This document shows positions 8,891 through 28,218 of a stretch of 64,000 bases of DNA, piece after piece (positions within the stretch are counted from its first letter, which is position 1; each line of letters begins with the position of its first letter). The notes beneath the pieces are model-generated. The model made no database searches. It saw only the letters and a program-made list of their open reading frames with translations, and was not told the origin of the DNA. Origin of the DNA: Hoyosella sp. YIM 151337 (GTDB lineage Bacteria; Actinomycetota; Actinomycetes; Mycobacteriales; Mycobacteriaceae); NCBI RefSeq assembly GCF_026041215.1, contig NZ_JAPEIQ010000013.1, positions 248,001-312,000 on the forward strand, given 5' to 3'. Made by a program: the position numbers and the translations under genes.

Positions 8891-9038
8891 GGACTCCAGG
8901 GTAGTGGCAGATTTTTGGTACCCCGGCAGGTTATCCCACTTGTTGGGCCTATCAAGAATCCGCGGCGGCCGCAGCCCCAACCGCAAGGGTTTCACCACCC
9001 GATACACACAAAGTGCCGTGCGGTCGTAGGCTTCGAAT

Positions 9039-9947: not shown

Positions 9948-9959
9948 ATCCGGCCGGAC

Positions 9960-10361
9960 TCAGACGGCAGCTCTGACCCGATGGCGCGAGGGCGCCACCG
10001 ACACTGCTACGCCGCCAGCTTCCACCTCATGGACTTCAACTGCGTACACGGGCGGCGCCCACACATCGATCCGGTGGCCATTGCACGAGGCATCGCCGAT
10101 CTGAATGAACACTGGCCGGTCCGGATCACCACCGATGAGGAAGGTGACGGTTTCACTGTCCGGTGCCGCGAACCGTGCGGCCCCATGCTTGGGAATATCA
10201 CGCGGCGCTGTTTCCGGAAATCCAGGGGATCCCGTAGCCGCGTCGAGTTCGAGGGTCTCCTCAGTTAAGTTCGTCACGCTCAGTGTGACGTTGCCGCCGT
10301 CTGTCATCCGGATCATCTCCCACCCGTATGGACTTACTCCCGCATCCGCAGCGCGAGTCAT
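9960..10361 (-). CDS. Uncharacterised protein, probably beta-rich
   Basis: 133 aa, function not recognised. It alternates short hydrophobic and polar strands (VTLSVTNLTEETLEL, VTFLIGG, PVYAVEVHEVEAGGVAVSV) without signal peptide or membrane segment, suggesting a small beta-sandwich. The start is uncertain. The ATG at 10361 is used; an ATG at 10307 has a better-spaced GGAG and would give 115 aa. It lies between the PAC2 gene (convergent) and mshC (same strand, 53 bp upstream), so it may share the mshC transcript. Confidence 0.5.
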   Translation of the reverse strand: MTRAADAGVSPYGWEMIRMTDGGNVTLSVTNLTEETLELDAATGSPGFPETAPRDIPKHGAARFAAPDSETVTFLIGGDPDRPVFIQIGDASCNGHRIDVWAPPVYAVEVHEVEAGGVAVSVAPSRHRVRAAV

Positions 10362-10414
10362 GTCCGGATGCGCTTCCTACGGGTTGTATCGCCCGCTGCC
10401 CCGGTAGCGTTTCA

Positions 10415-11677: not shown

Positions 11678-11694
11678 GGCACCACTGTATGTCG

Positions 11695-12522
11695 TTAGAA
11701 CGGTGGCCAGGGAATGGGGCTCATCGGTCCGAGCCCGGAAAGCGGACGCGGAAAACGCGGGGTATCGAGGATGCGCTGAATACGCTGCTGAACGGCGCCG
11801 AGCTCTTTCGGCGAAATCAGAGTGCTGAGCTCAGCACCGAAATCGCCGGTAAGTGCCATCCCCAGGCGCTTCACGTCGGCCAGCAGGGCATCCGGAATCT
11901 CCCGTCCCGCCCAGCCCCACAGGACCGTGCGCAACTTGTCTTCCTGATGCAGGCAGATGCCGTGGTCGATGCCGAACAGAGCACCGTCCGAAGTCGCAAG
12001 GATGTGACCACCCTTGCGGTCAGCGTTGTTCACAATGAGATCGAAAACCGCTAAACGCGCGAGCCGCTCGTCATCAGCATGAGCGAGGATAACCTCAGCG
12101 TCGTCCTCGGTGACGGCGCGCAGCACCGGCAGCCACCCGCTGGGCAACGCGGCCGGTTCGAACACCCCCAGGAGGTCCGCACCGCGGGACTCGTCCTCGG
12201 TGATCCACTCCTGAACCATGCCAGGCCCGAACGGCCCATCCCGGAGCAGCGTAGTAGGCACGATATGCCAGCCGAGTTCGGCTGAGACCTCGTACGCGGC
12301 ACGTTCCCGGGCAGCCAGCGTGCCGTCAGGAAAATCCCACAGCGGACGTTCGCCGCGGATCGGCTTGTAGATACACCGCACTACCGCGGCACCCCATTCG
12401 GCGTCGCAGAGGAAGCTAGCGTTACTCGCGGCGCGCAGCTGCCCAAGCACGGTTAGTGTGCCGTCGCGCAACGACTTCTGTACCTCGCCATCGGCGTTCC
12501 CGCTGCCCTCGTCGTGTGTCAC
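11695..12522 (-). CDS. SCO1664 family protein (PI3/PI4-kinase-like fold)
   Basis: 275 aa. It has an early GxL.....AxxNxxFL segment and [25 protein letters not shown] catalytic-loop-like [16 protein letters not shown] lies near residue 165, followed by [11 protein letters not shown]. Those last two motifs resemble the HRD- and DFG-equivalents of HipA and PI3/PI4 kinases. It may therefore phosphorylate a small molecule or protein, with target unknown. The gene order with DUF3090 (9 bp upstream), the histidine phosphatase and mshC is conserved in actinobacteria (Rv2133c-Rv2135c). The start is GTG at 12522. Confidence 0.8.
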
Positions 12523-12531
12523 CGGGACGAC

Positions 12532-13155
12532 TCACTCGCCGAAGCCGGAGATGTCGTCGTCATCGTCCGCATCGGGGTCGACGTCAGCGGGATCGATCTC
12601 GGCGCCGCGCCGGTACCCGTTGAGCCGGATACACAGATGCCCTTCCGCGTCGAGCGGTGTCGCACACAGGGGGCACAGCGGCCGGCCCGCCGCAATCACA
12701 CGTTCCGCCCGCGCGACAAATTGCCGGGCCTGCGCCGGTGAAAGGAACACGCGGACGGCGTCCGGGCCTTCCTCACTGTCACCGAGCACCACCGACTCAT
12801 CGATTTCGCCTTCGGTGAACGCAAGCAGCTCGACAACAACGGTGCTCGCTTCGGAATCCCACCCGAGGCCCATGGTGCCCACCCGGAATTCCGGTTCGAT
12901 CGGCGTCTGCAGCGGGCTCGAATCAGCGAGTTCGGTTTCCGGTGGCGGTATCGCCGCCCCAAACCTGCGCTGCACCTCGTCCAGCATGGCACCGATGCGT
13001 TCAGCCAGCACCTTCACCTGCTGCTTTTCGAGCATCACACTGATGACGCGCTTGTCGTGAACGGCCTGAAGATAGAAGATGCGCTCGCCGGGCTCACCGA
13101 CTGTTCCAGCAATAAACCGGTCGGGAGTGCGGAAAACGTGTATGACGCGAGACAT
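12532..13155 (-). CDS. DUF3090 family protein
   Basis: 207 aa, actinobacterial family of unknown function (Rv2134c position). It opens MSRVIHVFRTPDRFIAGTVGEPG. It has a Cys-x2-Cys-x8-Cys cluster, CPLCATPLDAEGHLC near residues 167-179, plausibly a metal site, and then an Asp-rich tail (DPDADDDDD). The ATG at 13155 has a strong GGGAGG six bases upstream. It lies 9 bp before the SCO1664-type gene and 79 bp after the phosphatase gene, all on the minus strand. Confidence 0.88.
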   Translation of the reverse strand: MSRVIHVFRTPDRFIAGTVGEPGERIFYLQAVHDKRVISVMLEKQQVKVLAERIGAMLDEVQRRFGAAIPPPETELADSSPLQTPIEPEFRVGTMGLGWDSEASTVVVELLAFTEGEIDESVVLGDSEEGPDAVRVFLSPAQARQFVARAERVIAAGRPLCPLCATPLDAEGHLCIRLNGYRRGAEIDPADVDPDADDDDDISGFGE

Positions 13156-13234
13156 GGCACCTCCCACAGTAACGGGCACACAATAACGAGCACGAACTAA
13201 TGCGCCGACAGTACGCGGCCTGAAGGACTCTCGC

Positions 13235-13924
13235 TCAGCGGGGGACGTCACCACCAACCACTGCATCAGAGGCGTTTGCGGCCCCGGGCTTTTCACGCGG
13301 CGCGAAGTGCGCGAAATCCGACCCGCTGTCATTGAGGTGATACAAAAATGGACGTGTCGCGGTATAGCGCACCACACTGACCGATGCGGGTTCGACGATG
13401 ATGCGCTGGAATCCGTCCAGATGCAGGCCGAGCGCGTCGGCAACGATGGATTTGATGACGTCTCCATGCGTGCACGCGATCCAGAGCGCATCCCCACCAT
13501 TCGCTTCCGCCAGCGCCCGGTCGTACTCCCGCACCGCCGCCACCGCCCGCGCCTGTACCTGGGCGAGGGACTCTCCCCCTGGGAAGACCACCGCTGACGG
13601 GTGCTGCTGGACGACCGCCCACAAGGGCTCTTTGACCAGATCTGTCAGCGGCCTGCCGGTCCACTCGCCGTAGTCGACTTCGATGAGCCGGGTATCGGGT
13701 ACCGGCTCAAGTCCGAGTTCTTGCGCTAACGGATCCACCGTTTGCTGGCACCGCAACAGCGGAGAACACACGATAGTGCGAATCGGCACGCCGCGCAGCC
13801 GGGCAGCCAGGGCCACGGACTGCTCGAGCCCTCGCTCATCGAGCGACACGGCTTCAGTCCGGCCCGCCAGCAGTCCCGACGTGTTCGCGTGTGAACGCCC
13901 GTGGCGCACCAGCATCACTGTCAT
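13235..13924 (-). CDS. Histidine phosphatase, MSMEG_4193 family
   Basis: 229 aa member of the phosphoglycerate-mutase-like branch. The catalytic LVRHGRSHAN lies at residues 5-14 (phospho-His8). The arginine motif is CSPLLRCQQT, the acid GEWTGRPL, and the second histidine ACTHGDVIKS near residue 150. Rv2135c is the positional counterpart. The substrate is unknown; conserved linkage with a kinase-like protein and DUF3090 suggests it works on the same metabolite or target. uppP lies 18 bp upstream on the same strand (its stop is at 13943). Confidence 0.88.
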   Translation of the reverse strand: MTVMLVRHGRSHANTSGLLAGRTEAVSLDERGLEQSVALAARLRGVPIRTIVCSPLLRCQQTVDPLAQELGLEPVPDTRLIEVDYGEWTGRPLTDLVKEPLWAVVQQHPSAVVFPGGESLAQVQARAVAAVREYDRALAEANGGDALWIACTHGDVIKSIVADALGLHLDGFQRIIVEPASVSVVRYTATRPFLYHLNDSGSDFAHFAPREKPGAANASDAVVGGDVPR

Positions 13925-13942
13925 AACGCTCCAGAGTAGCCG

Positions 13943-14776
13943 TCACGTGGCGCTGATAACGCCGCCCGCGAGCAGACCCATGATCAACGCACCCACCACG
14001 AGGCGGTACCCCACAAACCAGTACATCGAATAGTGCTGCACAAACCTCAGGAACCAGGCGATGCACGCGTACCCGATGACGAAGGTAATGACGGTTGTCA
14101 CTGCGAGCTGGGCACCACTTGCAGGCAGCCCCTCGCCAGCCGGGTCGAACGCGTCGGGCAGACTGAACAGCCCTGACGCCACAACCGCGGGGATTGCGAG
14201 CAAGAACGAGAATCGCGCCGCCGCGTACCGGGACAGACCCATCGCGAGACCTGCCGTAATCGTGCCGCCAGACCTTGAGACACCGGGGATGAGCGCCCCG
14301 GCCTGCGCAACACCCATCGCCACCGCGTCCCGCATGCGTAACTCGGTCATAGGACGCTGCTTGCGGCCCCAGTACTCCGCCGCGGCTAGCAGGAGTCCCG
14401 CGAAGATGAACATTGACGAAATGATCCACAGGTTGCGGGCTCCAGTCCGGACCTCATCCCGAAAAATGAAGCCGAGAATCCCGATCGGCAACGAGCCGAT
14501 GATGAGATACCAGCCCAGTTTGTATTCGAATACGTGCCGCTCGTCCCGGTTGAAAAGGCCCCGGAACCAGGCGATCGCGACGTAGTAGATGTCCTTCGCG
14601 AAGAACACAAGAACGGCGGCTTCCGTGCCGAGCTGACTCACTGCCGTGAAGGAGGCGCCCGCATCTGTGCCGAATAGCAGTTCGTCGGCCAGCCGCAGAT
14701 GGCCGGACGAAGAGATCGGCAGAAACTCCGTGAGCCCCTGGATGACTGACAACACGATCACCTGCAGCCACGACAT
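13943..14776 (-). CDS. uppP: Undecaprenyl-diphosphatase
   Basis: Integral membrane enzyme recycling the undecaprenyl carrier used for peptidoglycan and arabinogalactan; 277 aa. Family motifs are [14 protein letters not shown] near residue 13 and [14 protein letters not shown] near residue 172. There are seven to eight hydrophobic segments. The start at 14776 ([10 protein letters not shown]) gives the family N-terminus; a longer version from 14845 would add 23 non-conserved residues. The ribosome site is weak for either. The downstream neighbour is the histidine phosphatase. Confidence 0.94.
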
Positions 14777-15004
14777 GTGTTCAATCGCTGTCTCGCCGCC
14801 CTGGGCGAGTACGGTTACGGAGTGCCCCAAGGTCCCCGAAGTCACTGCGGAGCCTCCGGCGCCGGGCCGATCTTCATGGAGTAGTACGGTACCTCTCCCC
14901 GGGGCATGATGCGGCCGAGCGCGGCAAGTGTGCGCATTCTCGCATGAGCGGCCCGACTGTGCTGCGCGGCGCCGCGCAGCGGCAGATCCCTACGGAAAGC
15001 GCAG

Positions 15005-15023
15005 TCAGGCTAGCCTTTACACC
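15005..15023 (+). promoter_or_regulatory. Possible IdeR/DtxR half-box overlapping a leaderless promoter of heme oxygenase
   Basis: The palindrome AGGCTAGCCT (15007-15016) contains a -10-like TAGCCT (15011-15016) seven bases before the ATG. No ribosome site is visible. The left part TCAGGCTAGCCT agrees at 10 of 12 positions with the DtxR/IdeR consensus start TTAGGTTAGCCT; the right part does not. Corynebacterial heme oxygenase HmuO is known to be DtxR-regulated, which makes the reading plausible. Confidence 0.4.
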
Positions 15024-15659
15024 ATGGCCTTCCATGAGCGTCTGAAAGCGGAAACGAGCGAGGCGCACCGCGCCGCCGAAGAATCGCCCTTTGTTGATGA
15101 TCTGCTCAGCGGCAAGCTGCCAGCTTCAGCGTATGCATGTTTGCTTGGACAACTGTTCCTCGTGTATCAGACGCTGGAGGACGCAGCGCGCTCACACCGC
15201 GAGAATCCAGTCGTCACGCCGTTTCTCGACGACGCCCTGTTGCGTGTGCCCGAACTTGAACGGGACCTACGCCACCTGAGCGGCGACGACTGGCTCGACC
15301 ACATCGACCCAATGCCGGCCACGCTCGATTACACCAACCGCATCCGCGAGGTCGCCTACGGCTCGAACGCGGCATTTATCGCGCACCATTACGTTCGCTA
15401 TCTGGGAGATCTTTCGGGCGGGCAGATCATTCGGCGCTCCCTCGAGCGTGCGTACGGTTTTTCTGATGACGGGGTGCGTTTCTACCGTTTCGACTCGATC
15501 CCGAAGATGAAGCCGTACAAAGATCGCTACCGATACGCTCTTGACTCCGCACCACTCAGCGCGCGCGAGCATGACGAACTAATCGGCGAGGCAATCCAGT
15601 CGTTTGAGCTCAACGCTGCGGTGTTCCGCGATTTGGGCCACGAACTGGCCCGGCGCTAG
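15024..15659 (+). CDS. Heme oxygenase (biliverdin-producing, HmuO type)
   Basis: Opens the heme ring to biliverdin, CO and ferrous iron for iron acquisition; 211 aa. The proximal heme ligand is His15 in SEAHRAAE. The distal helix motif is YLGDLSGGQII near residue 130, with YVRYLGD just before it. Length and motifs match bacterial HmuO. No transport or reductase gene is adjacent; neighbours are uppP (divergent) and the Rv2137c-like gene (convergent). The ATG at 15024 appears to lack a leader. Mycobacteria generally use the unrelated MhuD, so presence of HmuO leans towards Rhodococcus- or Corynebacterium-like lineages. Confidence 0.93.
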   Translation: MAFHERLKAETSEAHRAAEESPFVDDLLSGKLPASAYACLLGQLFLVYQTLEDAARSHRENPVVTPFLDDALLRVPELERDLRHLSGDDWLDHIDPMPATLDYTNRIREVAYGSNAAFIAHHYVRYLGDLSGGQIIRRSLERAYGFSDDGVRFYRFDSIPKMKPYKDRYRYALDSAPLSAREHDELIGEAIQSFELNAAVFRDLGHELARR

Positions 15660-15782
15660 GCACGCTCGTTGCTGAGCCGTTCGGGCGGTCATGGTTGAGC
15701 CCTGGGGGCGAGGACAATCGGGAAAGATCGGGGCGCTATAGACACCCTAATTCTTCACAATCTGAGAGTTCCGCTGGGCTGG

Positions 15783-16151
15783 TCAGCCAGCCGATGTCCA
15801 CCGGCTTAGCAGCGCGCGAACACCGTGTCCGTCATCGCGCTGCGCCGCTATCGTCTCCGCATCCGACACCGCGTCGCGTACGGCGGCCGCGATGCTGCGC
15901 TCGTCGCCCAGGTCCACGTCGACGACCGGCCGGTCCACAGATGCTTCGACATCGGAACTGTCAGGTACCGTAGTTTCGAGATCCGCGCGGTACACCTCGA
16001 CATGAAGGGTTCTGCGGTGGAGCGCGCTGTTACGCACCTGGAAAGCGAACGTCCGGCCACGGCCGGTCTGGCCGAAACCGTGTGCGTTGGGACCGGGGGA
16101 AAGGTCGTCGATGACGAACGCAGGAGCGGCAGAGTTGTTGTGAGCTGTCAT
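15783..16151 (-). CDS. Conserved actinobacterial hypothetical protein (Rv2137c-like)
   Basis: 122 aa, small, soluble and of unknown function. It begins MTAHNNSAAPAFVID and has GPNAHGFGQTGRGRTFAFQVRNSAL, then an acidic middle and a C-terminal helix (AAAVRDAVSDAETIAAQRDD). The ATG at 16151 has GGAG seven bases upstream. Its position between uppP and an LppL-type lipoprotein matches Rv2137c. It is divergent from the lipoprotein gene. Confidence 0.7.
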   Translation of the reverse strand: MTAHNNSAAPAFVIDDLSPGPNAHGFGQTGRGRTFAFQVRNSALHRRTLHVEVYRADLETTVPDSSDVEASVDRPVVDVDLGDERSIAAAVRDAVSDAETIAAQRDDGHGVRALLSRWTSAG

Positions 16152-16314
16152 AGCGAACTCCGTGTGCCCATGGTCCACCTCGGTCCTGGTACAGCGCGCA
16201 CAGCAGCGAGGGGTGGAGTTCAGCGCGACCGCCGTGGGCGCGTGCGTAACAGTTGCGTCTTCAACGATACAACCTCCAAAAGAACAATGCGGCGAATCGG
16301 GAGGAACGGGGACG

Positions 16315-17361
16315 TTGTCACCACTGCGTTGCGTTGATCGGCGGCGCCGGTCAAGAGAGATCATTGCGCTGACCACAGCGTTTTCCGCAGCACTCGTAGT
16401 CGGGCTGACGGGCTGCTCGTCCTCCGATGAACCCGACGTGCAAGTCGTGCCACCTGCGACCGCAGCGGAGTCGCCACCCTTAGCTGCCGCCCCTGAGGGC
16501 GACATCATTCCGCTTGATCTCCCTGTCACCGCTACTGCTTTCGACTCCGGCACAGAATCGCTCGTGCTGCTTTCCGGCCACGAACTTGTCTATTTCTCCC
16601 CGGCGGCCGACGCACCGGATAACGTCAACCGCGTCACGCTGCCAAGCGCAGGCAGCGATCTCGCTCTCGATGGGCAAGGGCACGCCCTCATCGCGGCTGG
16701 TGACTCCATCGCGCAGGTTGATTTGTCCAGTGGAGATGTAGGTTTCCTCCCTCTGGGCAACGACGAGGACGGTGGCGCAGAGTTCACCGCAGTAACCGCA
16801 TTCGGCGACGGTTCAATTGTCGCCGGCACGGCGGACGGTGCTGTGCTCACCGAAGGACGCAGCGTTCCGGGGCTCGTTTCCGCTGATGTTGTGATCGCAT
16901 CTGGTGAGCATCTCGCAGTCATCGACCGGCGTCAGAGCATGATCGCCGAAGTGTTCCCAGACCGGGAAACCCGCGGCTTCGCGCTCCGGGCGGGCAACGG
17001 CGCAACAAACGCGGCAACCGATGGCCGCGGCCGGGTCTTCGTCGCGAACACACGCGACGGCGAACTCCTCGTGTACTCGCTCGACCGACTCGTTCTCAGA
17101 CAGCGGTATCCGGTGCCCGATTCTCCCTATGGTATTGCCTACGATGCTGGTAACGAACTCGTCTGGGTGACGCAAACCGGGCTCAACGAGGTCGCCGCCT
17201 ATGTGCTGGACACGGGAATTCCGGTTGAGGTTGCGCGGTATGCCACCGTGCAGCAGCCAGATTCGGTTGCCGTGGATAGTGCTGGGGGTTATCTATACGT
17301 GTCATCCGGGACGGGTGGCGGCGTGCAGCGCATTCAGTTGGAAGCACCAGATGAGGACTGA
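16315..17361 (+). CDS. LppL-like lipoprotein, predicted beta-propeller
   Basis: 348 aa from a TTG at 16315, chosen because GGGAGG stands nine bases upstream and the product then begins with a compact lipoprotein signal. The signal has RRRR, a hydrophobic core and lipobox LTGC. The mature part has repeated strand-turn units ([62 protein letters not shown]), suggesting an NHL/YVTN-type propeller. It matches the Rv2138 (LppL) position directly before pyrD, 10 bp away. It is probably anchored outside the membrane; function unknown. Confidence 0.82.
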
Positions 17362-17371
17362 TCGGGGAGCA

Positions 17372-18466
17372 ATGGTGTACGGCATTCTGCTGAGGGTGAT
17401 GTTCCTCTTGCCACCGGAGGTCATCCACCGGTTCGCGTTCGGCATGATAAAGACTGTTAGTTTCGTCCCGCCGCTGCGCTGGCTGGCGAAAAAGGTGCTC
17501 GGAAACCACGATCCAGCACTGCGAATCAGGGCGTTCGGAGTCGATTTTCCCGCACCGCTTGGCCTCGCAGCGGGATTCGACAAGAACGCGGCCGCGATCA
17601 ACTCTTGGGGGCCGCTCGGATTCGGCTATGTCGAGATCGGCACCGTGACGGCCCATCCCCAGCCCGGCAACCCTGGCCCCCGGCTTTACCGGCTGCCCGC
17701 GGACCATGCGCTAATCAACCGCATGGGCTTCAACAATCATGGTGCGGGTTTCGCCGCCAATCAGCTGCGCACGCGCCGCACATCCATCGCTGTGGGCGCC
17801 AACATTGGCAAGACGAAGGTCGTGCCCACGGGTGAAGCCATCGGCGATTACCTCGCGAGCGCGCGCCTGCTTGGTCCGCTCTCGGATTTCCTCGTTGTCA
17901 ACGTCAGCTCACCGAACACGCCGGGGCTGCGCGATTTGCAGGCTGTGGAATCCTTACGTCCACTGCTCGCGGCAATTAAGGCGGCAGTGAATGTCCCTGT
18001 GCTGGTGAAGATCGCCCCCGACTTGTCTGACGAAGACGTCGACGCAATCGCGGATCTCGCTGTGGAACTCGAACTCGACGGCATCGTCGCAACAAACACG
18101 ACGATCAAACGAACCGGGCTGAATACCCCTGCCGCCGAAGTGGAGGCTATGGGCCCTGGCGGACTCTCCGGCGCACCGGTGGCTGACCGTTCTCTCGAGG
18201 TTCTGCGCCGGCTCTATCGCCGGGTCGGTGACAAGATCACCCTCGTGTCCGCAGGCGGTATCGAAACGGTCGAGCAGGCCTGGCAGCGTATCGAAGCGGG
18301 CGCGACGCTGCTCCAGGGCTACACCGGGTACATCTACGGCGGCCCGCTATGGCCGCGCCGCATCAACCGCGGTATCGCGCAGCGGTTGCGCGCGCACGGA
18401 TACGCAACCCTGCAAGAGGCGGTTGGCGCCGAGCATCGGCGCCGGGGCTCGAGTCTGGGCAGCTGA
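17372..18466 (+). CDS. pyrD: Dihydroorotate dehydrogenase (quinone), class 2
   Basis: Membrane-associated flavoprotein oxidising dihydroorotate to orotate with quinone, fourth step of pyrimidine synthesis; 364 aa. The N-terminal helical extension ([19 protein letters not shown]) is the class 2 quinone-tunnel domain. Core motifs are [20 protein letters not shown] and [11 protein letters not shown] with the catalytic Ser, then [27 protein letters not shown] and [12 protein letters not shown]. The ATG at 17372 has GGGGAG upstream and overlaps nothing. It is likely co-transcribed with the lipoprotein gene. Confidence 0.96.
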
Positions 18467-18470
18467 GGTG

Positions 18471-18500
18471 GGCAGGGCGGGCGCACATTGCCGCCCTGCC
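18471..18500. terminator. Hairpin between convergent pyrD and PEBP genes
   Basis: Perfect 10-bp inverted repeat GGCAGGGCGG / CCGCCCTGCC with a 10-base loop, lying just after the pyrD stop and before the end of the opposite gene. There is no T-tract. It could end transcription from both sides. Confidence 0.6.
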
Positions 18501-18505
18501 GTCCC

Positions 18506-19036
18506 TCACTCCTGACTGTAGGTCGCGACGATTACAGCGCGCGCGATTGCCTGGGAGAAAAGATTGAAGCCGAGAAACGCAGGGGTAGCAGTCTCCGGAA
18601 GGTCGATCCGCTCCGTACCCACGGCGTGCACCGCGATGTAGTAGTGATGCGTGCCGTGCCCGGCGGGCGGGGCAGCGCCAACGTAGCCGCGGAATCCGGC
18701 ATCGTTCTGAAGCTGCACGGCCCCGTCCGGCAGCGCCGAGTTGTCGTTCTGTCCAGCTCCAGCGGGCAGTTCAGTGACCTGTGCGGGAATGTTCGCGACA
18801 GCCCAATGCCAAAATCCCGACGCTGTCGGTGCATCCGGATCGAAAACAGTGACGGCGAAGCTCTTGGTCTCCGGCGGAAACCCAGACCAGCTCAGTTGGG
18901 GCGAGACGTCCTTGCCACCAGCCCCGAAGACCCCCGAAACCTGCGGGTTCGCCAGCCGCTCCCCCTCCTTTACGTCGTCCGACTTGAGTTCGAACGTCGG
19001 CAACACAGGCAGCGACGCGTACGGATTCGTGCTCAC
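18506..19036 (-). CDS. YbhB/YbcL family PEBP (Raf kinase inhibitor-like) protein
   Basis: 176 aa phosphatidylethanolamine-binding-protein fold. Anion-pocket motifs are [13 protein letters not shown] near residue 43, [15 protein letters not shown] near residue 64, and [23 protein letters not shown] near residue 118. It corresponds to Rv2140c. Cytoplasmic and without a signal peptide. The ligand and role are unknown. The M20 peptidase gene lies upstream on the same strand (stop at 19069, 33 bp away). Confidence 0.9.
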
Positions 19037-19068
19037 ATCAAACCCCTTTCATTGTGGTGTCGATTACG

Positions 19069-20403
19069 TCAGCAGTTGCGCAGAAAGTGATCGAGTACAC
19101 GGGTGCCGAAACGGAGCGCATCAACAGGAACCCGTTCGTCGACGCCGTGGAAAAGCGCCGCAAAGTCCAGGTCTGGCGGCAGTTTGAGCGGAGCGAAACC
19201 GAAGCACCGGATCCCGAGCTTCGCGAAAGCCTTCGCGTCCGTGCCGCCGGGAAGCATGTACGGCACCGTCCTGGCACCGGGATCTTCACTCAGCAGCGCC
19301 GCGTTCATGGCGTCGACGAGATCTCCGTCGAAGGTGGTTTCGTAGGAGTCGAGGTTCGTCACCCACTCGCGCTCGACGTGGGGACCGATCAGTTCGTCAA
19401 CTTCACGCTCGAATGACGCCTGACGGCCGGGCAGCACGCGGCAATCTACGACCGCCTCGGCGGACTGCGGGATCACATTGGCCTTGTAACCGGCCCGCAG
19501 CATGGTCGGATTTGCGGTATCGCGAAGGGTCGCACCAATAATCCGTCCGATGCTGCCCAGCTTAGCGATGGTGCCTTCGAGGTCTGGTGATGCGGGGTCG
19601 AAGTCGAGTCCGGTCTCTTCGGCGACGGCTGCCAGAAACTGCTCGACGGACTCGGTGAGAACTAGCGGGAACCGGTGCCTGCCAAGCCGTGCCACAGCTT
19701 CCGCAAGGTAGGTGACGGCGTTGTCTTCATGCAGAAACGAACCGTGGCCCGCTCGCGCCTTCGCAGTGAGCTTCATCCACGCAATGCCCTTTTCGGCCGT
19801 CTCAAGCAGATACAGACGGCGTTCCGAGCCGTCGGGCCGTGGCACAGTCAGCGAGTAACCGCCCACCTCACCTACTGCTTCCGTCACTCCATCGAATAGG
19901 TCGGGCCGGTGTTCGACAAGCCAGTGCGAGCCAAATTTGCCGCCCGCTTCTTCATCCGCGAGGAAGGCGAAGACTAGGTCGCGGGGCGGCACTATGCCGT
20001 CCCGCTTGAACTGGCGGGCCAGTGCAATGGTCATTCCGACCATGTCCTTCATGTCAACCGCACCACGGCCCCACACATAGCCATCCTCGATCGCACCCGC
20101 GAACGGGTGGACGCTCCAGTCGGCGGGCTCGGCGGGCACAACATCCAGGTGACCGTGGATCATGAGGGCCCCGCGGCTGCGGTCCGCGCCCGGGAGCCGG
20201 GCAAAGACATTCGACCGGCCGGGCGCGCCCGAATCGACGAGGGTCGTCTCGTAGCCAGCGTCCTGCAGTTGCTCCGCAACCCACTCCGCGCAGGCGCGCT
20301 CACCCTTCGTGGTCGCGGGATCACCAGTGTTCGAGGTATCGAACTGGATGAGCCGGCACACAAGGTCGACGACCTCTTGCTCGGCCTGCGAACCACGATT
20401 CAT
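19069..20403 (-). CDS. M20 family metallopeptidase (dipeptidase/deacylase-like)
   Basis: 444 aa, two-zinc aminoacylase/carboxypeptidase family. Metal-site motifs are MIHGHLDVVPA, WGRGAVDMKDM, FLADEEAGG with the catalytic Glu, and LPGGTDAKAFAK; a C-terminal His lies in LFHGVDERVP. A dimerisation domain occupies about 190-330. Positional match to Rv2141c. The substrate is not readable. The ATG at 20403 has GGGAG 11 bases upstream; an in-frame GTG at 20415 sits too close to that site. Confidence 0.88.
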   Translation of the reverse strand: MNRGSQAEQEVVDLVCRLIQFDTSNTGDPATTKGERACAEWVAEQLQDAGYETTLVDSGAPGRSNVFARLPGADRSRGALMIHGHLDVVPAEPADWSVHPFAGAIEDGYVWGRGAVDMKDMVGMTIALARQFKRDGIVPPRDLVFAFLADEEAGGKFGSHWLVEHRPDLFDGVTEAVGEVGGYSLTVPRPDGSERRLYLLETAEKGIAWMKLTAKARAGHGSFLHEDNAVTYLAEAVARLGRHRFPLVLTESVEQFLAAVAEETGLDFDPASPDLEGTIAKLGSIGRIIGATLRDTANPTMLRAGYKANVIPQSAEAVVDCRVLPGRQASFEREVDELIGPHVEREWVTNLDSYETTFDGDLVDAMNAALLSEDPGARTVPYMLPGGTDAKAFAKLGIRCFGFAPLKLPPDLDFAALFHGVDERVPVDALRFGTRVLDHFLRNC

Positions 20404-21338: not shown

Positions 21339-22757
21339 ATGATCGACCCGGATGAACTCGCAATCTGCTTGCGTGTCCTTGACCAGGCTGCGGAACTCGA
21401 CAAGGACGACCCCGATTCGGTGACCGTGCAGCGCGCCGTCGGCCGAATGTTCAAGACGCTGAAGCGGCGCCGCCGCATCGAGGCGCGCGACACCAAAGCC
21501 AAACATGACGCCGCCGTTATCGCCGCGACCGCGACCGGTTCACCGAACCGCATCGATGACGAAACACAGGGCATCGCGCTCACGTCACGCGCACACGGCG
21601 ACTCCGCGGGAACGCTCGTGAGCCCGCAGGGCTGCTACGTCTGTAAACAGGACTACACGCGCGTCGACTGGTTCTATCACCAGCTCTGCCCCGAGTGCGC
21701 AGCGTTCAGCCACGGCAAACGCTCCGCGCGCACCGATCTCACCGGGCGCCGCGCACTACTCACCGGCGGGCGCGCCAAGATTGGCATGTACATCGCGCTG
21801 CGGCTGTTGCGTGACGGCGCCCACACCACTATCACCACGCGATTTCCCCGGGACGCGATGCGGCGTTTCGCCGCGATGGACGATAGCGCGGACTGGCTGC
21901 ACCGGTTGCGCGTCGTGGGCATCGACCTGCGCGATCCAGCCCAGGTCGTGTCGCTCGCGGAGATGATGGCAGCAGAGGGCCCGCTCGACATCTTGATCAA
22001 CAACGCGGCGCAGACGGTCCGCCGCTCCCCTGGCGCGTACAGCGCACTCGCCGACGCTGAATCTGCGCCGCTGCCCGCGGGTGAGTTGCCTGAGCACATC
22101 ACTTTCGGTAAGCCAAGCCAGCTGCACCCTGCCGCGCTTTCAGGTGCGCTCGATGGTGCAAACCTCACGGCCGAACAAGTGTCCGCGCTCGCACTGGTGG
22201 CGGGTTCGGCGACCCCGGATCGCATCAGCAAAGGCATCGCAATCGATGCCGGCGGGCTCGTACCCGATCTGGTGGACACCAACAGCTGGGTTCAGCGCGT
22301 ACACGAGGTCGACCCCCTTGAATTGCTCGAGGTGCAATTGTGCAACTCGGTGGCGCCGTTCATCCTCGTCTCCCGGCTGCGGGGGGCCTTGGCCGCGTCC
22401 GCCGCGCGGCGGAAGTACGTCGTGAATGTCTCCGCGATGGAAGGACAGTTCTCGCGCCGGTACAAGGGCCCGGGCCACCCGCACACCAACATGGCGAAGG
22501 CCGCGCTCAACATGCTCACCCGGACCAGCGCGGAGGACATGCTGGCTGAAGGCATCTTGATGACGGCAGTCGATACCGGATGGATCACCGATGAGCGCCC
22601 CCATCCGACGAAGATGCGGCTCGCGGATGAAGGATTCCACGCGCCGCTTGACCTTGTTGACGGCGCTGCCCGCGTCTACGATCCGATCGTGCAGGGAGAG
22701 AACGGCCTCGACCTCTACGGCTGCTTCCTAAAGGACTACCGTCCGTCGCCATGGTGA
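21339..22757 (+). CDS. SDR-like oxidoreductase with Cys-pair insert and altered active site
   Basis: 472 aa from the ATG at 21339 (start uncertain, weak ribosome site). The N-terminal 125 residues are helical and charged, then CYVCKQDY near 103 and CPECAAF near 122 form a zinc-ribbon-like pair. The Rossmann part begins with RRALLTGGRAKIGMYIALRLL, then VVGIDLRDP, LDILINNAAQTVRR and YVVNVSAMEG. Where classical SDRs have Tyr-x3-Lys, the sequence reads HTNMAKAALNML: Lys is kept but Tyr is Thr. A conserved bacterial/plant-like family; substrate unknown. It ends 12 bp from the convergent FHA gene. Confidence 0.75.
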   Translation: MIDPDELAICLRVLDQAAELDKDDPDSVTVQRAVGRMFKTLKRRRRIEARDTKAKHDAAVIAATATGSPNRIDDETQGIALTSRAHGDSAGTLVSPQGCYVCKQDYTRVDWFYHQLCPECAAFSHGKRSARTDLTGRRALLTGGRAKIGMYIALRLLRDGAHTTITTRFPRDAMRRFAAMDDSADWLHRLRVVGIDLRDPAQVVSLAEMMAAEGPLDILINNAAQTVRRSPGAYSALADAESAPLPAGELPEHITFGKPSQLHPAALSGALDGANLTAEQVSALALVAGSATPDRISKGIAIDAGGLVPDLVDTNSWVQRVHEVDPLELLEVQLCNSVAPFILVSRLRGALAASAARRKYVVNVSAMEGQFSRRYKGPGHPHTNMAKAALNMLTRTSAEDMLAEGILMTAVDTGWITDERPHPTKMRLADEGFHAPLDLVDGAARVYDPIVQGENGLDLYGCFLKDYRPSPW

Positions 22758-22769
22758 GGCCGTACGGCG

Positions 22770-23390
22770 CTACAGGTCCCGGACAGTGATCACACCGCTG
22801 TGCAGCGCGCGTTCCGCAAGTTGCGCGCGCTTCTGGTTCTGCGGCAGTTCCTCGACCTGGAATTTGGTGAACAGCGTGCGCAGGTGGGTTTTTACGGCGT
22901 CGATACTGAGAAATAGTTCGTCGGCTATCTGCTGATTCGATGCGGGGCGAGCGAACGACGCGTTCGCCCGGTACGGGCGGCACAGCGCGACAAGTACCGA
23001 GCGCTGTGTTTCCGTTAGCGTCGGGACCAGCGACCCGGTCGACGCCACCCGGGTGGTCGTCCCTGTCGACCCGAGCAGATCCTCGAACGTCAGCGCGGTT
23101 TCGCCGACAAGGATCACGTCCTTGTGCCGCAGTCTCCGGCGCCCCGTGATCCGCTGTCCGTTGACATACGTACCGTTGCGGGAGAGGCCATCGTCGACCA
23201 CCGTCCACTCACCCGCGATCATCTCGAATGCGGCGTGGAGCCGGGACACCTGATGGTCACCAGCGATAGTGACGTCGGCCTGTTCCGAACGCCCGATTGT
23301 CAGCCGCGACGCCTCTGGCGGGAAGTCCCAGTAGTGGCGCTGCCCCGATCCGCTGCTGACGTAAACCCGCCACCGTACCGGCTCTTCCAC
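22770..23390 (-). CDS. FHA-domain protein with LuxR-like helix-turn-helix
   Basis: 206 aa from GTG at 23390 (GGGG five bases upstream). The FHA domain at about 25-105 has LTIGRSEQADVTI, HQVSRLHAAFEM and SRNGTYVNGQRI; the GR, SxxH and N residues bind phosphothreonine. The C-terminal part (about 125-200) has LTETQRSVLVALC and SNQQIADELFLSIDAVKTHLRTLFTKF, a GerE/LuxR-type DNA-binding helix pair. It is therefore likely a transcription factor docking to a phosphorylated partner. It is the last gene of the run kinase, DUF4333 lipoprotein, FHA-HTH on the minus strand, so the Ser/Thr kinase at 24058-26466 is a natural partner. Confidence 0.88.
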   Translation of the reverse strand: MEEPVRWRVYVSSGSGQRHYWDFPPEASRLTIGRSEQADVTIAGDHQVSRLHAAFEMIAGEWTVVDDGLSRNGTYVNGQRITGRRRLRHKDVILVGETALTFEDLLGSTGTTTRVASTGSLVPTLTETQRSVLVALCRPYRANASFARPASNQQIADELFLSIDAVKTHLRTLFTKFQVEELPQNQKRAQLAERALHSGVITVRDL

Positions 23391-23475
23391 GTGAACCCCA
23401 TTCCGACGAACGAATCCCTACAAATGGTTCAGCAGGCATCCTCGCCTATAAACAGCGTAGTCCGAGGCACGGTTC

Positions 23476-23967
23476 CTACTCGTCGAGCGACCAGTAGACT
23501 TCGCCGTCTTCCTCGACGGTGGCCACTGCCGCGAACTCCTCGTCCGCCGTCGCGACGGCGCACCGCACTGCCTCCCCCGCGGTGTTGCTCAGCGCACCGT
23601 CGCACGACACGTCACCGGCCTCAACTCCGGTGATTCCAGCCAGATCCTGTTCGAGGTCAGCGGCGCCGTACCGGACGATCTCCGCGACTTCCCAATCGAA
23701 GTCGACATCTTGCCCATCTACGGCGCTCGCGCGCACGGTGATGCGGTATTCGGTGTCGAGCGCATCGACGAAGGTGCATTCCGCGGTTGCGCCGACCTCG
23801 GCGTCGAGCGAGTCCGGGCAGGAGACCGAGGCGGGGGCCTCGCCCGTCTGCTCCTCAAGACCCGTGGTCAGTTCGGCTTCCAGATCGCTGCCCGAAACGC
23901 TCGATGAACACCCAGCCAGAAGCACCGCGCCTGCAGTGACAGCGACGACGGCATACCTGCGCCTCAT
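23476..23967 (-). CDS. DUF4333-type lipoprotein
   Basis: 163 aa from the ATG at 23967 (GGGGAG eight bases upstream). Signal MRRRYAVVAVTAGAVLLAGC ends in lipobox LAGC. Two tandem DUF4333-like units follow: VSCPDSLDAEVGATAECTF (about 48-66) and VSCDGALSNTAGEAVRCAV (about 121-139). Each has a Cys pair, probably a disulfide, and is followed by beta strands. Such domains occur in actinobacterial lipoproteins and Ser/Thr kinase ectodomains. It lies 90 bp after the membrane kinase gene, hinting at an extracytoplasmic partner. Strongly acidic. Confidence 0.82.
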   Translation of the reverse strand: MRRRYAVVAVTAGAVLLAGCSSSVSGSDLEAELTTGLEEQTGEAPASVSCPDSLDAEVGATAECTFVDALDTEYRITVRASAVDGQDVDFDWEVAEIVRYGAADLEQDLAGITGVEAGDVSCDGALSNTAGEAVRCAVATADEEFAAVATVEEDGEVYWSLDE

Positions 23968-24057
23968 GTGGTTCTCCCCTGCATGCTGCCGCCCGGGCGT
24001 TGCTGTCTGGGCGTAATGCGGGAAGACTACCAAGCAGCGTGGCGTCGCGACTTGCAT

Positions 24058-26466
24058 TTAGTGGTGAGCGCCCTCCAGTGGCGACGGCAGCGATTCGACA
24101 GCGCGCAGCCCGGAACCGACAACGCGCTCGAGTGCGCGCAGGTCCTCTTCCATCAGCCGGTACAGCCAGTACGCGACCACGAACGCGATAATGATGAACA
24201 CCGCGGGCACTCCGAGCCCAGTGACCACGGCCTGCACTTGTTCAGGCGAGAGGAATGTCACGGCGTAGACGCCAGCGAGCGGTACGAGGGCAGCTATCGG
24301 GAGATAGATCATGCAGCGCCGCCGTAGTCCCCGCAATCTGCGCAGGTCACCCCGGTTTGGCTGGCCATGCCGCAGGAACAGCGGGTAGATACAGCGGACG
24401 AGATAAAAGTTGACCAGGAAGAACGGGTACAGGACGGCGAGCGCGCCGTGCACTGTCAGAGAACTCAGGAAATGCAGGTAGGCACCGGTCGGCAGCGTTC
24501 CTCCCGCAGCTTCGAGGCCAAGCGGAATGCTGAATGCTGCGGTAAGCCAGAAGCCGAATATCACCAGGACCACACGGTCGCCGAAAAGTAGCGTGTCCGC
24601 TCGGGCATGGGCCAGCGTTTCTGTGTCGTACTGTTTGCCTTTCATCAGCCCGCGCGGAATCGTCAGCAGCCTCCTGCCAAAGAAGATCAACAGCGCCGCT
24701 CCGACGGGCCACAAGGTGGCGTTCGTCATTGCGACCGCCGACCAGAATGCCGCTTCGGTCTGCGCGTCGGTTTGCGCGATGATCAAAGCGTGATTGTGCG
24801 TCGTGTTGTACACCCCGGCTAGCGCGCCTGGCACCGCAATCGCAAAGAATATAACCGGGAAAAGCCAGCGGGAAAGCCGTGCCCGCCAGCTGCGGGGCGG
24901 CGGATCGACCAGATCTCGTGCGCGGGCGTCGAGGCACAGTTCGAATTGCTGAGCCAGCAGCGCTCCTGAGGACCAGCGTTCATCGCGGTCATGGCGCAGG
25001 CATCGAGATAACACGCGCCGCAGGGCCCCCGGGCAGTCGGCGGGCAGGGAATCTTCCGCTTCCAGGACCGGACCGTGCTCACGCAGTGCGATCATGTTTC
25101 CCAGCGCCACGTTTGTTTCCGCGGAAAGCTGCTCGTGCCCGAACGGGCGGCGCCCGGTGAGCAGCTCCCACAGCATGACTCCTAAGCCGTAGATGTCGCT
25201 GCGGGTATCCAGGTCAGCCGGGGTGCGAGAATGCCCTGGGTGGCAGGCCTCCAACTGTTCCGGTGACATGTACGCTAGGGAACCGCCGAAGTAGGCGACC
25301 GGGTTGTCCCCCGCGATCTCATTGCTGTAGCTGATGTTGAAATCGGCGAGCTTGGGGACACCGTCCGCGGTGAGGAGCACGTTCGCAGGTTTCACGTCGC
25401 GGTGCAGCACCCCGCGCGTCGCCGCATAGTCGAGCGCCAGCGCGAGGCACCGGCCGAGCCACGCGACCGTCTCCGGCCAGGACATCGCCGCAATCATGGC
25501 CCGGGCGGATGATTCACTCGGCCGGATCGAGGCTTTCTGCGTGAGCACCTCGTCGACGGTATCGAGCAGCAGCTGTCCGCTGCGCTGTTCAGCCGGAACG
25601 TCCCGTAGCCGCTGCAGCACCCCCTGCAGTGTTCCGCCGGAGAGATACTGCATGTACAGCAGTCGCGCATTGTGGCTCGGAAGCACGCGCTGGTCGAAGA
25701 CCCGCACAATGTAGTCGTGGTCGAGTTGCGCGAGTGTTTGCGGTTCGGTCCCGTGATCGTGTGACACTTTGACCGCCACCAGGCGCTGCATGGATCGCTG
25801 CCGCGCCAGGAATACTCGCGCGAATGCACCACTGCCCAGCGAGAGCAGCAAGTCGAAGTCGTCGAGCCGCTGGCCCACATCAATGTCATCGAGTGTTGGC
25901 TGCGTGCGCTGCACGGATGCAGTCGGCAGCCCCGCCGCGGCTGTTCGTGTCTGGGTCTCCGATAGCAATCCGGTAGCGTCCGCTGTGACATCAGTCGCGG
26001 CCACAGCGTGGGTAGGGTCAGCTGCTGAGTTCGCCTGGATCATGTCGGCAAGCGCAGCCGACTGGCCAGGGAAGCGCCGCTGATAATCACCCAGAGAGAC
26101 AGTTTCACCTGCGTCTCTCCGAGCGAAAAACTCGGCGGCGATCAAATCGGGCGGTACAGGAGCGGTCTGAAGTTCGGGGAACTCGTGGACGTACTCACTG
26201 AGTCGTTTCGGCTGGCCATATTCGCGCCACCGATAATGGAGGTCGACCTTGATCAGCTCGATGAGCGACAGACGGCGCAATTCAGCGGCGTGGGAGGCGT
26301 ACCGTGCGAGCTCTGGCGGCTCACCTGCAGCTTCCCACGCGAGTGCGAATCGCCGCACCACATCAGCGGGGACGGACAGCGCCTGCGTCAGCCCGTGTCT
26401 CTCCCGCCCGAAGCCGCCGCCAGACACCGCATCGTCTTCGGCCCGCGAACGACGTGCATTTTTCAT
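24058..26466 (-). CDS. Membrane Ser/Thr protein kinase, planctomycete-like architecture
   Basis: 802 aa. Residues about 65-110 (LSLIELIKVDLHYRWREYGQPKRLSEYVHEFPEL) resemble the N-terminal region common in planctomycete kinases. The kinase domain (about 200-490) shows LGSGAFARVFLAR, VAVKVSH (ATP Lys), LHRDVKPANVLLT and SPEQ. The metal motif reads DFN instead of DFG (KLADFNISYS), and SDIYGLGVMLWELLTG follows. After about 505 come roughly six hydrophobic segments ending near residue 770. Actinobacterial PknB-type PASTA repeats are absent. It heads the unit with the DUF4333 lipoprotein and FHA-HTH gene. No clear ribosome site; the start could be slightly further in. Confidence 0.85.
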   Translation of the reverse strand: MKNARRSRAEDDAVSGGGFGRERHGLTQALSVPADVVRRFALAWEAAGEPPELARYASHAAELRRLSLIELIKVDLHYRWREYGQPKRLSEYVHEFPELQTAPVPPDLIAAEFFARRDAGETVSLGDYQRRFPGQSAALADMIQANSAADPTHAVAATDVTADATGLLSETQTRTAAAGLPTASVQRTQPTLDDIDVGQRLDDFDLLLSLGSGAFARVFLARQRSMQRLVAVKVSHDHGTEPQTLAQLDHDYIVRVFDQRVLPSHNARLLYMQYLSGGTLQGVLQRLRDVPAEQRSGQLLLDTVDEVLTQKASIRPSESSARAMIAAMSWPETVAWLGRCLALALDYAATRGVLHRDVKPANVLLTADGVPKLADFNISYSNEIAGDNPVAYFGGSLAYMSPEQLEACHPGHSRTPADLDTRSDIYGLGVMLWELLTGRRPFGHEQLSAETNVALGNMIALREHGPVLEAEDSLPADCPGALRRVLSRCLRHDRDERWSSGALLAQQFELCLDARARDLVDPPPRSWRARLSRWLFPVIFFAIAVPGALAGVYNTTHNHALIIAQTDAQTEAAFWSAVAMTNATLWPVGAALLIFFGRRLLTIPRGLMKGKQYDTETLAHARADTLLFGDRVVLVIFGFWLTAAFSIPLGLEAAGGTLPTGAYLHFLSSLTVHGALAVLYPFFLVNFYLVRCIYPLFLRHGQPNRGDLRRLRGLRRRCMIYLPIAALVPLAGVYAVTFLSPEQVQAVVTGLGVPAVFIIIAFVVAYWLYRLMEEDLRALERVVGSGLRAVESLPSPLEGAHH

Positions 26467-26576
26467 TCGTGCACCGACCGTTTGCGTCGTTCTGGTCTGA
26501 CTATTCGCTCAGGATACGCCCGTGCCGATGCGCTGTCCGAGCAAAACGGCCGGAGCCGGCCGGGAGCGCTGGGCGG

Positions 26577-27491
26577 TCATCGGTTTCGCAGAACCTCACG
26601 AACGTCGCGCCGGTGTGAGCGCGGGAGTACGGGGTACCGCTGGTGCCCGAGGCGCAGCACCGCCTGCGCGTACCCACCCGACTCGGTCCCGTTGCCAACT
26701 GATCCGTTATGACCATTCCTGCTGCGCCGCGCCGCGTCTCGCACACCGGGACGGTCGTCAATGTCGATGATCGGACAGGTCGCGACATTGAGGGATGTGG
26801 CCAGCAGAATAATTGCCGAGAGGGCGATACCCGCGTGCAGCCAGGCCTGGGGATCGTCGCTTTCCGTGAGCAGCACGCCCACATCTGCCCGGTCGCGTTC
26901 TACCCGCCACGCCGACATGCGCTCCGAGCGGAGCGGCAGCCGTGCTGCACCGGTGATTGCGTCGATACCGTCATCGTCGAGCAATGCCAAACTTGCACCG
27001 TGCGCACGCGCGCACTGCGCCAGCTGGTGCGGAACCGGCGAGAGCGGGCCAAGTGACGCGAGCGGACGCGTCTCGGTTCGGCGGGAATCCATGGCGAGGA
27101 ACATTGCGAGGATCGCACCACCGTCAGCGCCAGTCCGAGTAAACCGCAGCGACGCGATGTGCAGGGCGTTCTCGTCGGTGGGGAATTCGGTGACGTGCGC
27201 CGTCCAGCCCAGCCCGGCGAGCGCCACAATCCCGTGATGCAGGGCCATTCCGCAGCTCAGCAGCATGAGCCTGCCGTCCGGATCAGATACCCCGGCCAGC
27301 CGTTCGGGATCAGCGAACAGGTGCAGCTCGGCGCCGTCAAAACGCCATTGCCAGGGTTGCCGATTCCATACTGACGGCGCACGCCGTGCGCGGCTCAGGG
27401 CCTCACGCACGAGGTCGAAACTCGGCACCTGCGCGTCAGCCTTGATCGGCTGTACGCCCAGAACGGGAGGGGCGATGCGTCGGGTGCTCAT
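26577..27491 (-). CDS. Acg-family nitroreductase-like flavoprotein
   Basis: 304 aa from the ATG at 27491 (GGAG five bases upstream). N-terminal half: ALSRARRAPSVWNRQPWQWRF, the FMN-contact motif of nitroreductase folds, followed by LMLLSCGMALHHGIVAL. Second half: DVGVLLTESDDPQAWLHAGIALSAIILLATS and a C-terminal RLGHQRYPVLPRSHRRDVREVL. This two-lobed form matches mycobacterial Acg (Rv2032/Rv3131), which binds FMN but may sequester it rather than act as a reductase. It follows a TetR gene on the same strand, 136 bp apart; an inverted repeat lies between them. Confidence 0.82.
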   Translation of the reverse strand: MSTRRIAPPVLGVQPIKADAQVPSFDLVREALSRARRAPSVWNRQPWQWRFDGAELHLFADPERLAGVSDPDGRLMLLSCGMALHHGIVALAGLGWTAHVTEFPTDENALHIASLRFTRTGADGGAILAMFLAMDSRRTETRPLASLGPLSPVPHQLAQCARAHGASLALLDDDGIDAITGAARLPLRSERMSAWRVERDRADVGVLLTESDDPQAWLHAGIALSAIILLATSLNVATCPIIDIDDRPGVRDAARRSRNGHNGSVGNGTESGGYAQAVLRLGHQRYPVLPRSHRRDVREVLRNR

Positions 27492-27590
27492 GACTACTCC
27501 ATTCGGAACGCGGTGCGGTTTTCTCCGCATTCCAAGAATCACCCGGCACGGCGCCACTTCGTCACGGCCACAAGACATGGCGCGGGAGGA

Positions 27591-27617
27591 TTTGGTCCCC
27601 GATTTCCGAGGACCAAA
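27591..27617. promoter_or_regulatory. Inverted repeat between TetR and Acg-like genes
   Basis: 8-bp perfect arms TTTGGTCC (27591-27598) and GGACCAAA (27610-27617) with an 11-base spacer, 10 bp beyond the TetR stop and 99 bp upstream of the Acg-like start. It could be an operator for the neighbouring TetR protein or a terminator hairpin of its gene. It does not match the DosR box known for mycobacterial acg. Confidence 0.45.
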
Positions 27618-27627
27618 GTCACCAGGG

Positions 27628-28218
27628 CTACGCCGCTGGCAGCGCCGCAGCGAGTACTTGTTCGAGTTCGCTGATTGTCTCCTCGAGCGGCCGGAGTGAG
27701 CGTTCAGCCCGGCACATGATGATGGCACCTTCAAACGCCGCAATGGTAAGCACCGCGAGGCTTTCAGCCCGGCTAATCGCGATGCCTTCCGCCGTCAGCC
27801 CCGCCGCGAGCGCCGCTTTCCAGCGCCGGAAGGTGTCGGTGACGGCGTCTGCATGCTGCTCGCTGTCTTCCCCGCCGCCCGCGACGACTGAGACCACTGG
27901 GCAGCCGGCCTGGAAGTCGCTCGATATGAGGACACTGCTCCAGAAGTCTCGCATTTTTCCCAGGCCAGTCAACGGACCGTCAGTGACGGCCGAGTCGATC
28001 AGCGAACTGATCGCGTCGCTCGCTACTTCAAGCGCTTCCGCAATGATCTGGTTGCGCCCACCAGGAAAGTGGTAGTAGACGGAACCTCGCGGGGCCTCGC
28101 TCCGGCTCAGGATCGCATCGATCGTCACTCCAGCGGAGCCGCGCTCACGCATGAGTTCAATCGCCGCGAGCACCATGCGGTCCCGGGTCTTGACGCGAGT
28201 TCGCTGCCGTGTAGCCAC
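27628..28218 (-). CDS. TetR family regulator (LmrA/YxaF-like)
   Basis: 196 aa from a GTG at 28218. N-terminal helix-turn-helix: TRDRMVLAAIELMRERGSAGVTIDAILSRSEAPRGSVYYHFPGGRNQI at about 11-60. The C-terminal ligand domain has AGCPVVSVVAGGGE and AAFEGAIIMCRAERSLRPLEE, which fits the LmrA/YxaF subgroup. Likely local targets are the downstream Acg-like gene and possibly the divergent nucleoside hydrolase 220 bp away. The ligand is unknown. Confidence 0.87.
   Translation of the reverse strand: MATRQRTRVKTRDRMVLAAIELMRERGSAGVTIDAILSRSEAPRGSVYYHFPGGRNQIIAEALEVASDAISSLIDSAVTDGPLTGLGKMRDFWSSVLISSDFQAGCPVVSVVAGGGEDSEQHADAVTDTFRRWKAALAAGLTAEGIAISRAESLAVLTIAAFEGAIIMCRAERSLRPLEETISELEQVLAAALPAA

Follow-up and report, generated by a model that had tools for sequence, protein, structure and literature searches.

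How does a membrane serine/threonine kinase with planctomycete-like features come to stand beside a gene for a transcription factor in an actinobacterium, and do the two work together? This question is raised by a locus at positions 22770-26466 of a 64,000-nucleotide stretch of the Hoyosella sp. YIM 151337 genome (contig NZ_JAPEIQ010000013.1; the whole stretch is called the window below). Three genes lie there, all on the minus strand: one for the kinase, which has DFN in place of the usual DFG motif, one for a DUF4333 lipoprotein, and one for a protein that joins a forkhead-associated (FHA) domain to a LuxR-type helix-turn-helix (FHA-HTH). An earlier note on this DNA had proposed that they form a one-operon route from envelope signal to kinase to transcription factor. 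With moderate confidence, we consider the kinase to be a planctomycete-type, receptor-like Ser/Thr kinase that entered the window's family (Mycobacteriaceae) once, through an ancestor within it, and was paired there with the FHA-HTH factor, which would dock on a linker of the kinase.

Proposed pairing of the kinase with the FHA-HTH protein

The two proteins are found largely in the same genomes. Among 61 genomes, a strong kinase match (E 1e-90 or better) is present in 14 of the 37 from the window's family and in none of the 24 from other families of its order, and exactly these 14 also have a strong FHA-HTH match (1e-60 or better). Across 201 genomes of the family, where the best 5 and best 15 candidates per genome were scored and absences are not proof, both proteins occur in 58 genomes, the kinase only in 5, the FHA-HTH protein only in 8 and neither in 130 (Fisher p 1.7e-35, ignoring kinship). 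Counting FHA-HTH matches better than 1e-50 only, the numbers become 57 with both, 6 with the kinase only and 5 with the FHA-HTH protein only.

The domains that the earlier note had read in the FHA-HTH protein are recognised by Pfam (FHA, 5.9e-17; GerE, 4.2e-07), with no BTAD. In 28 aligned proteins the FHA domain retains its GR, SxxH and NG blocks (named after the accessible part of PMC4238996), with Gly33 and His52 in 28/28, Ser49 and Asn72 in 27/28 and Arg34 in 26/28. The HTH region is likewise conserved across this set.

A second line of evidence comes from the threonine-rich linker just ahead of the kinase domain. The T-x-x-A pattern is counted 104 times in 48 linkers, each at most 90 residues long, against a shuffle mean of 54, with none of 2000 shuffles as high, and Glu and Asp are enriched two positions ahead of linker threonine. 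Within the final 50 linker residues, the average is 6.2 Thr for the 44 rows (aligned kinase sequences) taken to have an FHA-HTH protein, a set in which that protein is unchecked for L107, L109, L110 and L238_9 and only weakly matched in G608; two or more Thr are present in 43 of the 44, and a T-x-x-A in 36. The mean is 5.9 in the 39 rows where the FHA-HTH protein was checked and strong, and 3.3 in 27 full-length planctomycete rows (L300, which gave no kinase open reading frame (ORF), is outside the 27). The four intact rows from genomes with the kinase only have 0, 0, 1 and 1 Thr, and the fifth such genome has the same sparse linker, with 1 Thr, in a broken gene; G576, too broken for the 48-linker count, was read separately. 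All five kinase-only genomes belong to one genus, in which two genomes with a single kinase and an FHA-HTH protein have 9 and 11 Thr. Because the intact kinase-only rows form one clade, beside a Thr-free paralogue from a genome also holding richer copies, the loss of their linker threonines counts as one event.

By analogy with PknH-EmbR and PknQ-MupFHA, we infer a sequence of linker autophosphorylation, FHA docking and transcription control. The six-segment membrane domain would sense the state of the membrane or envelope, its presumed stimulus, and control the cytoplasmic kinase domain, which may then phosphorylate threonines of its own linker. The FHA-HTH protein could dock on the resulting phosphothreonines at T-x-x-A sites and would then either be retained at the membrane or be released once phosphorylated, such that its DNA binding probably tracks kinase activity. 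The route from envelope to kinase to factor proposed for a single operon holds up in part: judged from sequence, co-occurrence and the Thr-rich linker favour the link between kinase and FHA-HTH protein, while the three-gene operon is not conserved beyond the genus.

Several findings weigh against this pairing. Close linkage is a minority arrangement, with this kinase within two genes of the FHA-HTH gene in 6 of 28 loci (three with the lipoprotein gene between them, three divergent and adjacent); another kinase lies within about four genes in 7 of the 28, and 8 genomes have the FHA-HTH protein without this kinase. T-x-x-A is missing from 8 of the 44 linkers counted with an FHA-HTH protein, Thr-poor paralogues (0-2 Thr) also occur in FHA-HTH genomes beside richer copies, and some of the counted linkers come from near relatives. 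The match between linker and partner depends on one loss plus the planctomycete contrast. In the PknH-EmbR system, phosphorylation of EmbR was seen in vitro and not detected in vivo under normal growth, according to the accessible part of PMC9239209.

It is therefore worth asking whether the kinase and the FHA-HTH protein act in separate pathways, their co-occurrence being due to a shared ancestor in the same lineages and their neighbourhood in the genus being incidental. The non-adjacency of the genes in most relatives, the genomes with either protein alone (8 and 5) and the single clade of intact kinase-only sequences agree with such an account, which we nevertheless find rather unlikely: close linkage exists in two arrangements, on the same strand in the window's genus and divergent in genus g2 as well as in G021:C36, and in the one genus with kinase-only genomes all five lacking the FHA-HTH protein are Thr-poor while the FHA-HTH genomes read keep a Thr-rich copy.

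If the pairing is real, the FHA-HTH protein might still act to restrain the kinase instead of serving as its output, binding the autophosphorylated linker and limiting activity. Precedents are MupFHA, an inhibitor of PknQ, and EmbR2, which inhibits PknH and is not itself phosphorylated (PMC4238996, accessible part). A pure inhibitor would have no need of the HTH that is conserved in the 28 aligned proteins, and we judge this reversal of roles to be unlikely.

Anatomy, distribution and phylogeny of the kinase

Each feature that the earlier note had listed for the kinase is present. RWREY and FPEL are both read in the N-terminal region, DFN stands in the place of DFG, and the C-terminal part has six membrane segments by hydropathy and six long helices in the structure model. 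Pfam matches the protein to Pkinase at 1.4e-33 and finds no PASTA repeats in it, which sets it apart from PknB/PASTA kinases. The model of the N-terminal domain (residues 30-155) has a mean predicted local distance difference test score (pLDDT) of 81 and yields no Foldseek match in the PDB at E<=0.001. The full-length model, in which the kinase N-lobe is poorly modelled, retrieves generic kinases in a structure search. In L108 and L109 (Mycolicibacterium tusciae and Mycobacterium sp. E740), the kinase frame as read is without the N-terminal helical domain.

Since DFN is invariant in 21/21 aligned members from the window's family, it is, on the evidence of this alignment, a family hallmark and not a chance substitution. 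K233, H355-R356-D357, N362 and D375 are equally invariant in the 21 members; the Hanks-type catalytic Lys, HRD, Asn and Asp of DFx are thus all present, and the Gly of DFG is replaced by Asn. By these residues, which are those expected of active kinases, the protein appears catalytically competent. DFN could still mark a permanently active kinase or a pseudokinase, giving a constant signal or a scaffold rather than a switch, and a precedent is Leishmania MPK10, whose DFN in place of DFG reportedly stabilises a seemingly active conformation (PMC4169501, accessible part). The invariant catalytic residues speak against a pseudokinase and would allow constant activity; taken as a whole, this explanation seems improbable to us.

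Further searches covered 246 Actinomycetota genomes, 99 planctomycete genomes and 150 genomes of the planctomycete order that holds G331, with the best 4, best 10 and best 7 candidates scored per genome, respectively. In the first set, 3 of the 7 genomes from the window's family contain the kinase and none of the 239 others does; in these 239 the best score with the family profile is 117 bits, over the kinase core. Named members of the kinase family also come from Rhodococcus sp. H36-A4 (G305, locus L106), Nocardia, Mycolicibacterium and Mycobacterium. Among the 99 planctomycete genomes, four score 714-828 bits and two about 400 bits, and Singulisphaera has four shorter relatives (224-309 bits); a Paludisphaera plasmid gives 197 bits. 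In the order holding G331, matches of 1e-60 or better occur in 81 of 150 genomes and matches of 597-998 bits in 65 of the 150, nearly all of the latter spanning the whole profile. A spread of the family to other phyla is unsupported: among the matches listed for 47 more genomes, most of them from other phyla and a few actinobacterial, none exceeds 130 bits. These genomes were picked for having kinases, were reached via their kinase loci, and are no full survey.

The planctomycete kinases share the architecture of the family, their N-terminal, kinase and multi-pass C-terminal domains being covered by one profile match. By hydropathy, two of three full-length rows read have six membrane segments and the third has four. 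DFN is present in 27/27 full-length planctomycete rows read, and DFH appears in 2 of 6 more distant ones.

A tree of 119 kinase domains (from 165, the other 46 being duplicates or left out by choice) unites the window's family (29 rows) with 12 planctomycete rows in one clade on a long stem, with a Shimodaira-Hasegawa-like approximate likelihood ratio (SH-aLRT) support of 100. All 35 actinobacterial kinases in the tree fall outside it, including eight from this genome, where two of the ten other kinase places yield no full domain. Also outside are 23 generic planctomycete kinases, 15 from other phyla and five planctomycete rows that had been labelled near beforehand. This tree rules out an ordinary actinobacterial kinase. 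The planctomycete resemblance and possible transfer between phyla suggested by the earlier note are supported to the extent that the kinase groups, with full support, with planctomycete kinases of the same architecture.

Trees restricted to this clade suggest the direction of the transfer. The 29 family rows form one clade (100/100) inside the planctomycete rows in a 41-row tree; in a 54-row tree the actinobacterial clade (100/100) is joined with ten planctomycete rows at 100/99, and 0/200 bootstrap trees of this set place the full-length planctomycete rows on one side. The larger trees hold 17 of the 29 family rows, the main ones without two very long rows, L203 and Isosphaera, and a quick tree that retains these two leaves the grouping unchanged. 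The outgroup of the kinase clade is also planctomycete, and the root depends on a distant outgroup. An approximately unbiased (AU) test rejects a single clade of the six first full-length planctomycete rows (p 0.018). Two further AU tests speak for caution here: there is no rejection with four of those six rows, chosen after seeing the tree (p 0.176), nor with 32 full-length planctomycete rows in the larger set (p 0.16).

From these sequence comparisons, the actinobacterial clade is likely nested within the planctomycetes rather than sister to them, and the data are best read as a single transfer out of the planctomycetes into an ancestor within the window's family. An ancestral actinobacterial kinase lost almost everywhere, or passed from actinobacteria to planctomycetes, would fit the 32-row AU result and the reliance of the root on a distant outgroup, and is made improbable by the lack of any full-length match in the 239 Actinomycetota genomes outside the family (best 4 candidates each), by the planctomycete outgroup and by the bootstrap trees. 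A recent arrival is not supported, as GC content resembles the surroundings and the family is diverse; a Rhodococcus plasmid that carries a kinase member split across two called ORFs qualifies this case.

A single acquisition from planctomycetes followed by pairing with the FHA-HTH factor leads to a further, more tentative idea. The transferred kinase may have been given a new output, the FHA-HTH protein, through an array of phosphothreonine docking sites grown in the linker, perhaps from a single ST-L/V-I-T site, the array having gone in the kinase-only lineage. ST[LV]IT is found at the same linker position in several of the nearest planctomycete kinases (L296-L299). We think this course of events possible, if doubtful.

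Layout of the locus and neighbouring genes

The coordinates of the three genes and their parts are collected in Table 1.

Table 1. Features of the kinase locus, in positions of the window
Feature	Position	Strand	Remark
Membrane Ser/Thr protein kinase, 802 aa	24058..26466	(-)	
N-terminal helical domain, ~residues 34-147, common to planctomycete kinases	26026..26367	(-)	no Pfam match
Threonine-rich linker, residues 148-194	25885..26025	(-)	10 Thr between residues 152 and 191; putative FHA docking sites
Kinase domain, ~residues 195-520	24907..25884	(-)	short beta3-alphaC segment (by eye)
DFN replacing DFG, residues 375-377	25336..25344	(-)	
Six-segment C-terminal membrane domain, ~residues 534-790	24097..24867	(-)	
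DUF4333 lipoprotein, two Cys-paired units, from likely start	23476..23967	(-)	ORF extends to 24057
FHA-HTH protein, 206 aa	22770..23390	(-)	GTG start
FHA domain, residues 31-96	23103..23300	(-)	
LuxR/GerE-like HTH region, residues 122-200	22791..23027	(-)	

The likely start of the lipoprotein is the ATG at 23967 after AGGGGAGA, which gives 163 aa with the lipobox LAGC; DUF4333 matches in two stretches (1.9e-17), in agreement with the two Cys-paired units noticed earlier. A gap of 90 bp separates the kinase from this start and one of 85 bp the lipoprotein from the FHA-HTH gene, spacings which make a single operon of the three genes plausible. A simple sigma-70 scan gave no promoter-like site in 22600-26700. 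The three-gene order is kept in 3/3 genomes of the window's genus and was seen only there, so that the linkage proposed earlier holds within the genus and fails as a conserved unit beyond it. A strong lipoprotein match is confined to the same 3 of the 61 genomes, by which the lipoprotein is rejected as a conserved third part outside the genus; judged by this distribution it is a genus-level neighbour, outside the conserved pair of kinase and FHA-HTH protein. A part for it in passing on an envelope signal is unsupported. Upstream of the kinase, nitroreductase-like and TetR-type genes (26577-28218 of the window; names by sequence reading) are retained in the three genomes of the genus.

Relatives have the kinase gene and the FHA-HTH gene arranged differently: the two may be adjacent and divergent, separated by about 20 kb (as in several further genomes) or located on separate contigs. 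Recurrent neighbourhoods, with genes named by sequence reading, run from ftsH to hpt/tilS for the kinase in many relatives (L038, L041, L048, L053, L055 and L239) and from lsr2/lysS to clpC for the FHA-HTH gene (L031, L043, L046, L054 and L062). Two Rhodococcus plasmids (L033, NZ_CP070614.1, 5821-10973; L034, NZ_CP095404.2, 10613-15949) bear a similar second module, in which an FHA-HTH gene diverges from three genes, two coding for hypothetical proteins and one for a Ser/Thr kinase other than this one. Kinase paralogues can also be clustered: L044 (G017:C18:145001-165000; 5644-19537) has four in a stretch of about 14 kb, including a tandem run of three. Copies broken into pieces or frames are seen in G576:C15, G024:C88 and G025:C14.

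Relation to known systems

Modules of a kinase with an FHA regulator, and FHA-LuxR proteins, are already known. Our search of the open-licence literature, mostly judged by listings, found neither this kinase family of planctomycete type nor its Thr-rich linker described for these actinobacteria, and only trypanosomatid cases turned up there for kinases with DFN for DFG. If the proposed history is true, it provides a traceable case of a receptor moving between phyla, for which relatives on the donor side, paralogues on the recipient side and a lineage with a loss are all available. It would also make it testable whether a disordered run of phosphothreonine sites suffices to couple a kinase of foreign origin to a resident transcription factor. 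A further gain is a bacterial kinase family in which all rows read have DFN for DFG.

Several described systems share parts of this arrangement. PknQ and MupFHA of Mycobacterium ulcerans are encoded close together and interact, whereas MupFHA is described as a kinase inhibitor and substrate, with no HTH mentioned in the accessible part of the source (PMC4238996). The signal domains recorded for multi-domain LuxR regulators already include FHA in PMC11784345, whose accessible part names no kinase partner. Kinase genes near a transcriptional output are also known for extracytoplasmic function (ECF) sigma factors controlled by Ser/Thr kinases, EcfP-PknT and EcfK-PknS (PMC8103513, accessible part), an arrangement that resembles some planctomycete loci. 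The loci searched around the actinobacterial kinases of the family contain no ECF sigma gene next to the kinase.

In 9 of 20 planctomycete loci, the gene next to the kinase encodes an ECF sigma factor and is oriented head to head with it. Because such a gene is absent from all 9 neighbourhoods examined among the ten planctomycete rows nearest the actinobacterial clade, no switch of output from a sigma factor is claimed here. Two planctomycete kinases of the wider clade (L231, 1-2351; L234, 8682-12852) adjoin FHA-GGDEF genes, which suggests other FHA-linked outputs. The kinases of the order holding G331 resemble those studied here in clade, in one-profile architecture and in their uniform DFN, and differ in having fewer linker threonines and in the absence of an FHA gene from 20 neighbourhoods.

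PknH belongs to the ordinary actinobacterial kinases with a single membrane pass. In Mycobacterium tuberculosis it shares an operon with the FHA regulator EmbR, whose FHA domain is needed for kinase contact and phosphorylation (PMC9239209, accessible part). The present locus is alike in bringing the kinase gene and the FHA-regulator gene together, here with the lipoprotein gene between them, and most relatives differ from it in this respect. EmbR, as it is described in the accessible literature, consists of an OmpR-like DNA-binding domain, a BTAD and then the FHA domain, whereas in the FHA-HTH protein the FHA domain comes first and the DNA-binding part is LuxR-like. With this difference in domain order and type, EmbR is the nearest studied case for the FHA-HTH protein.

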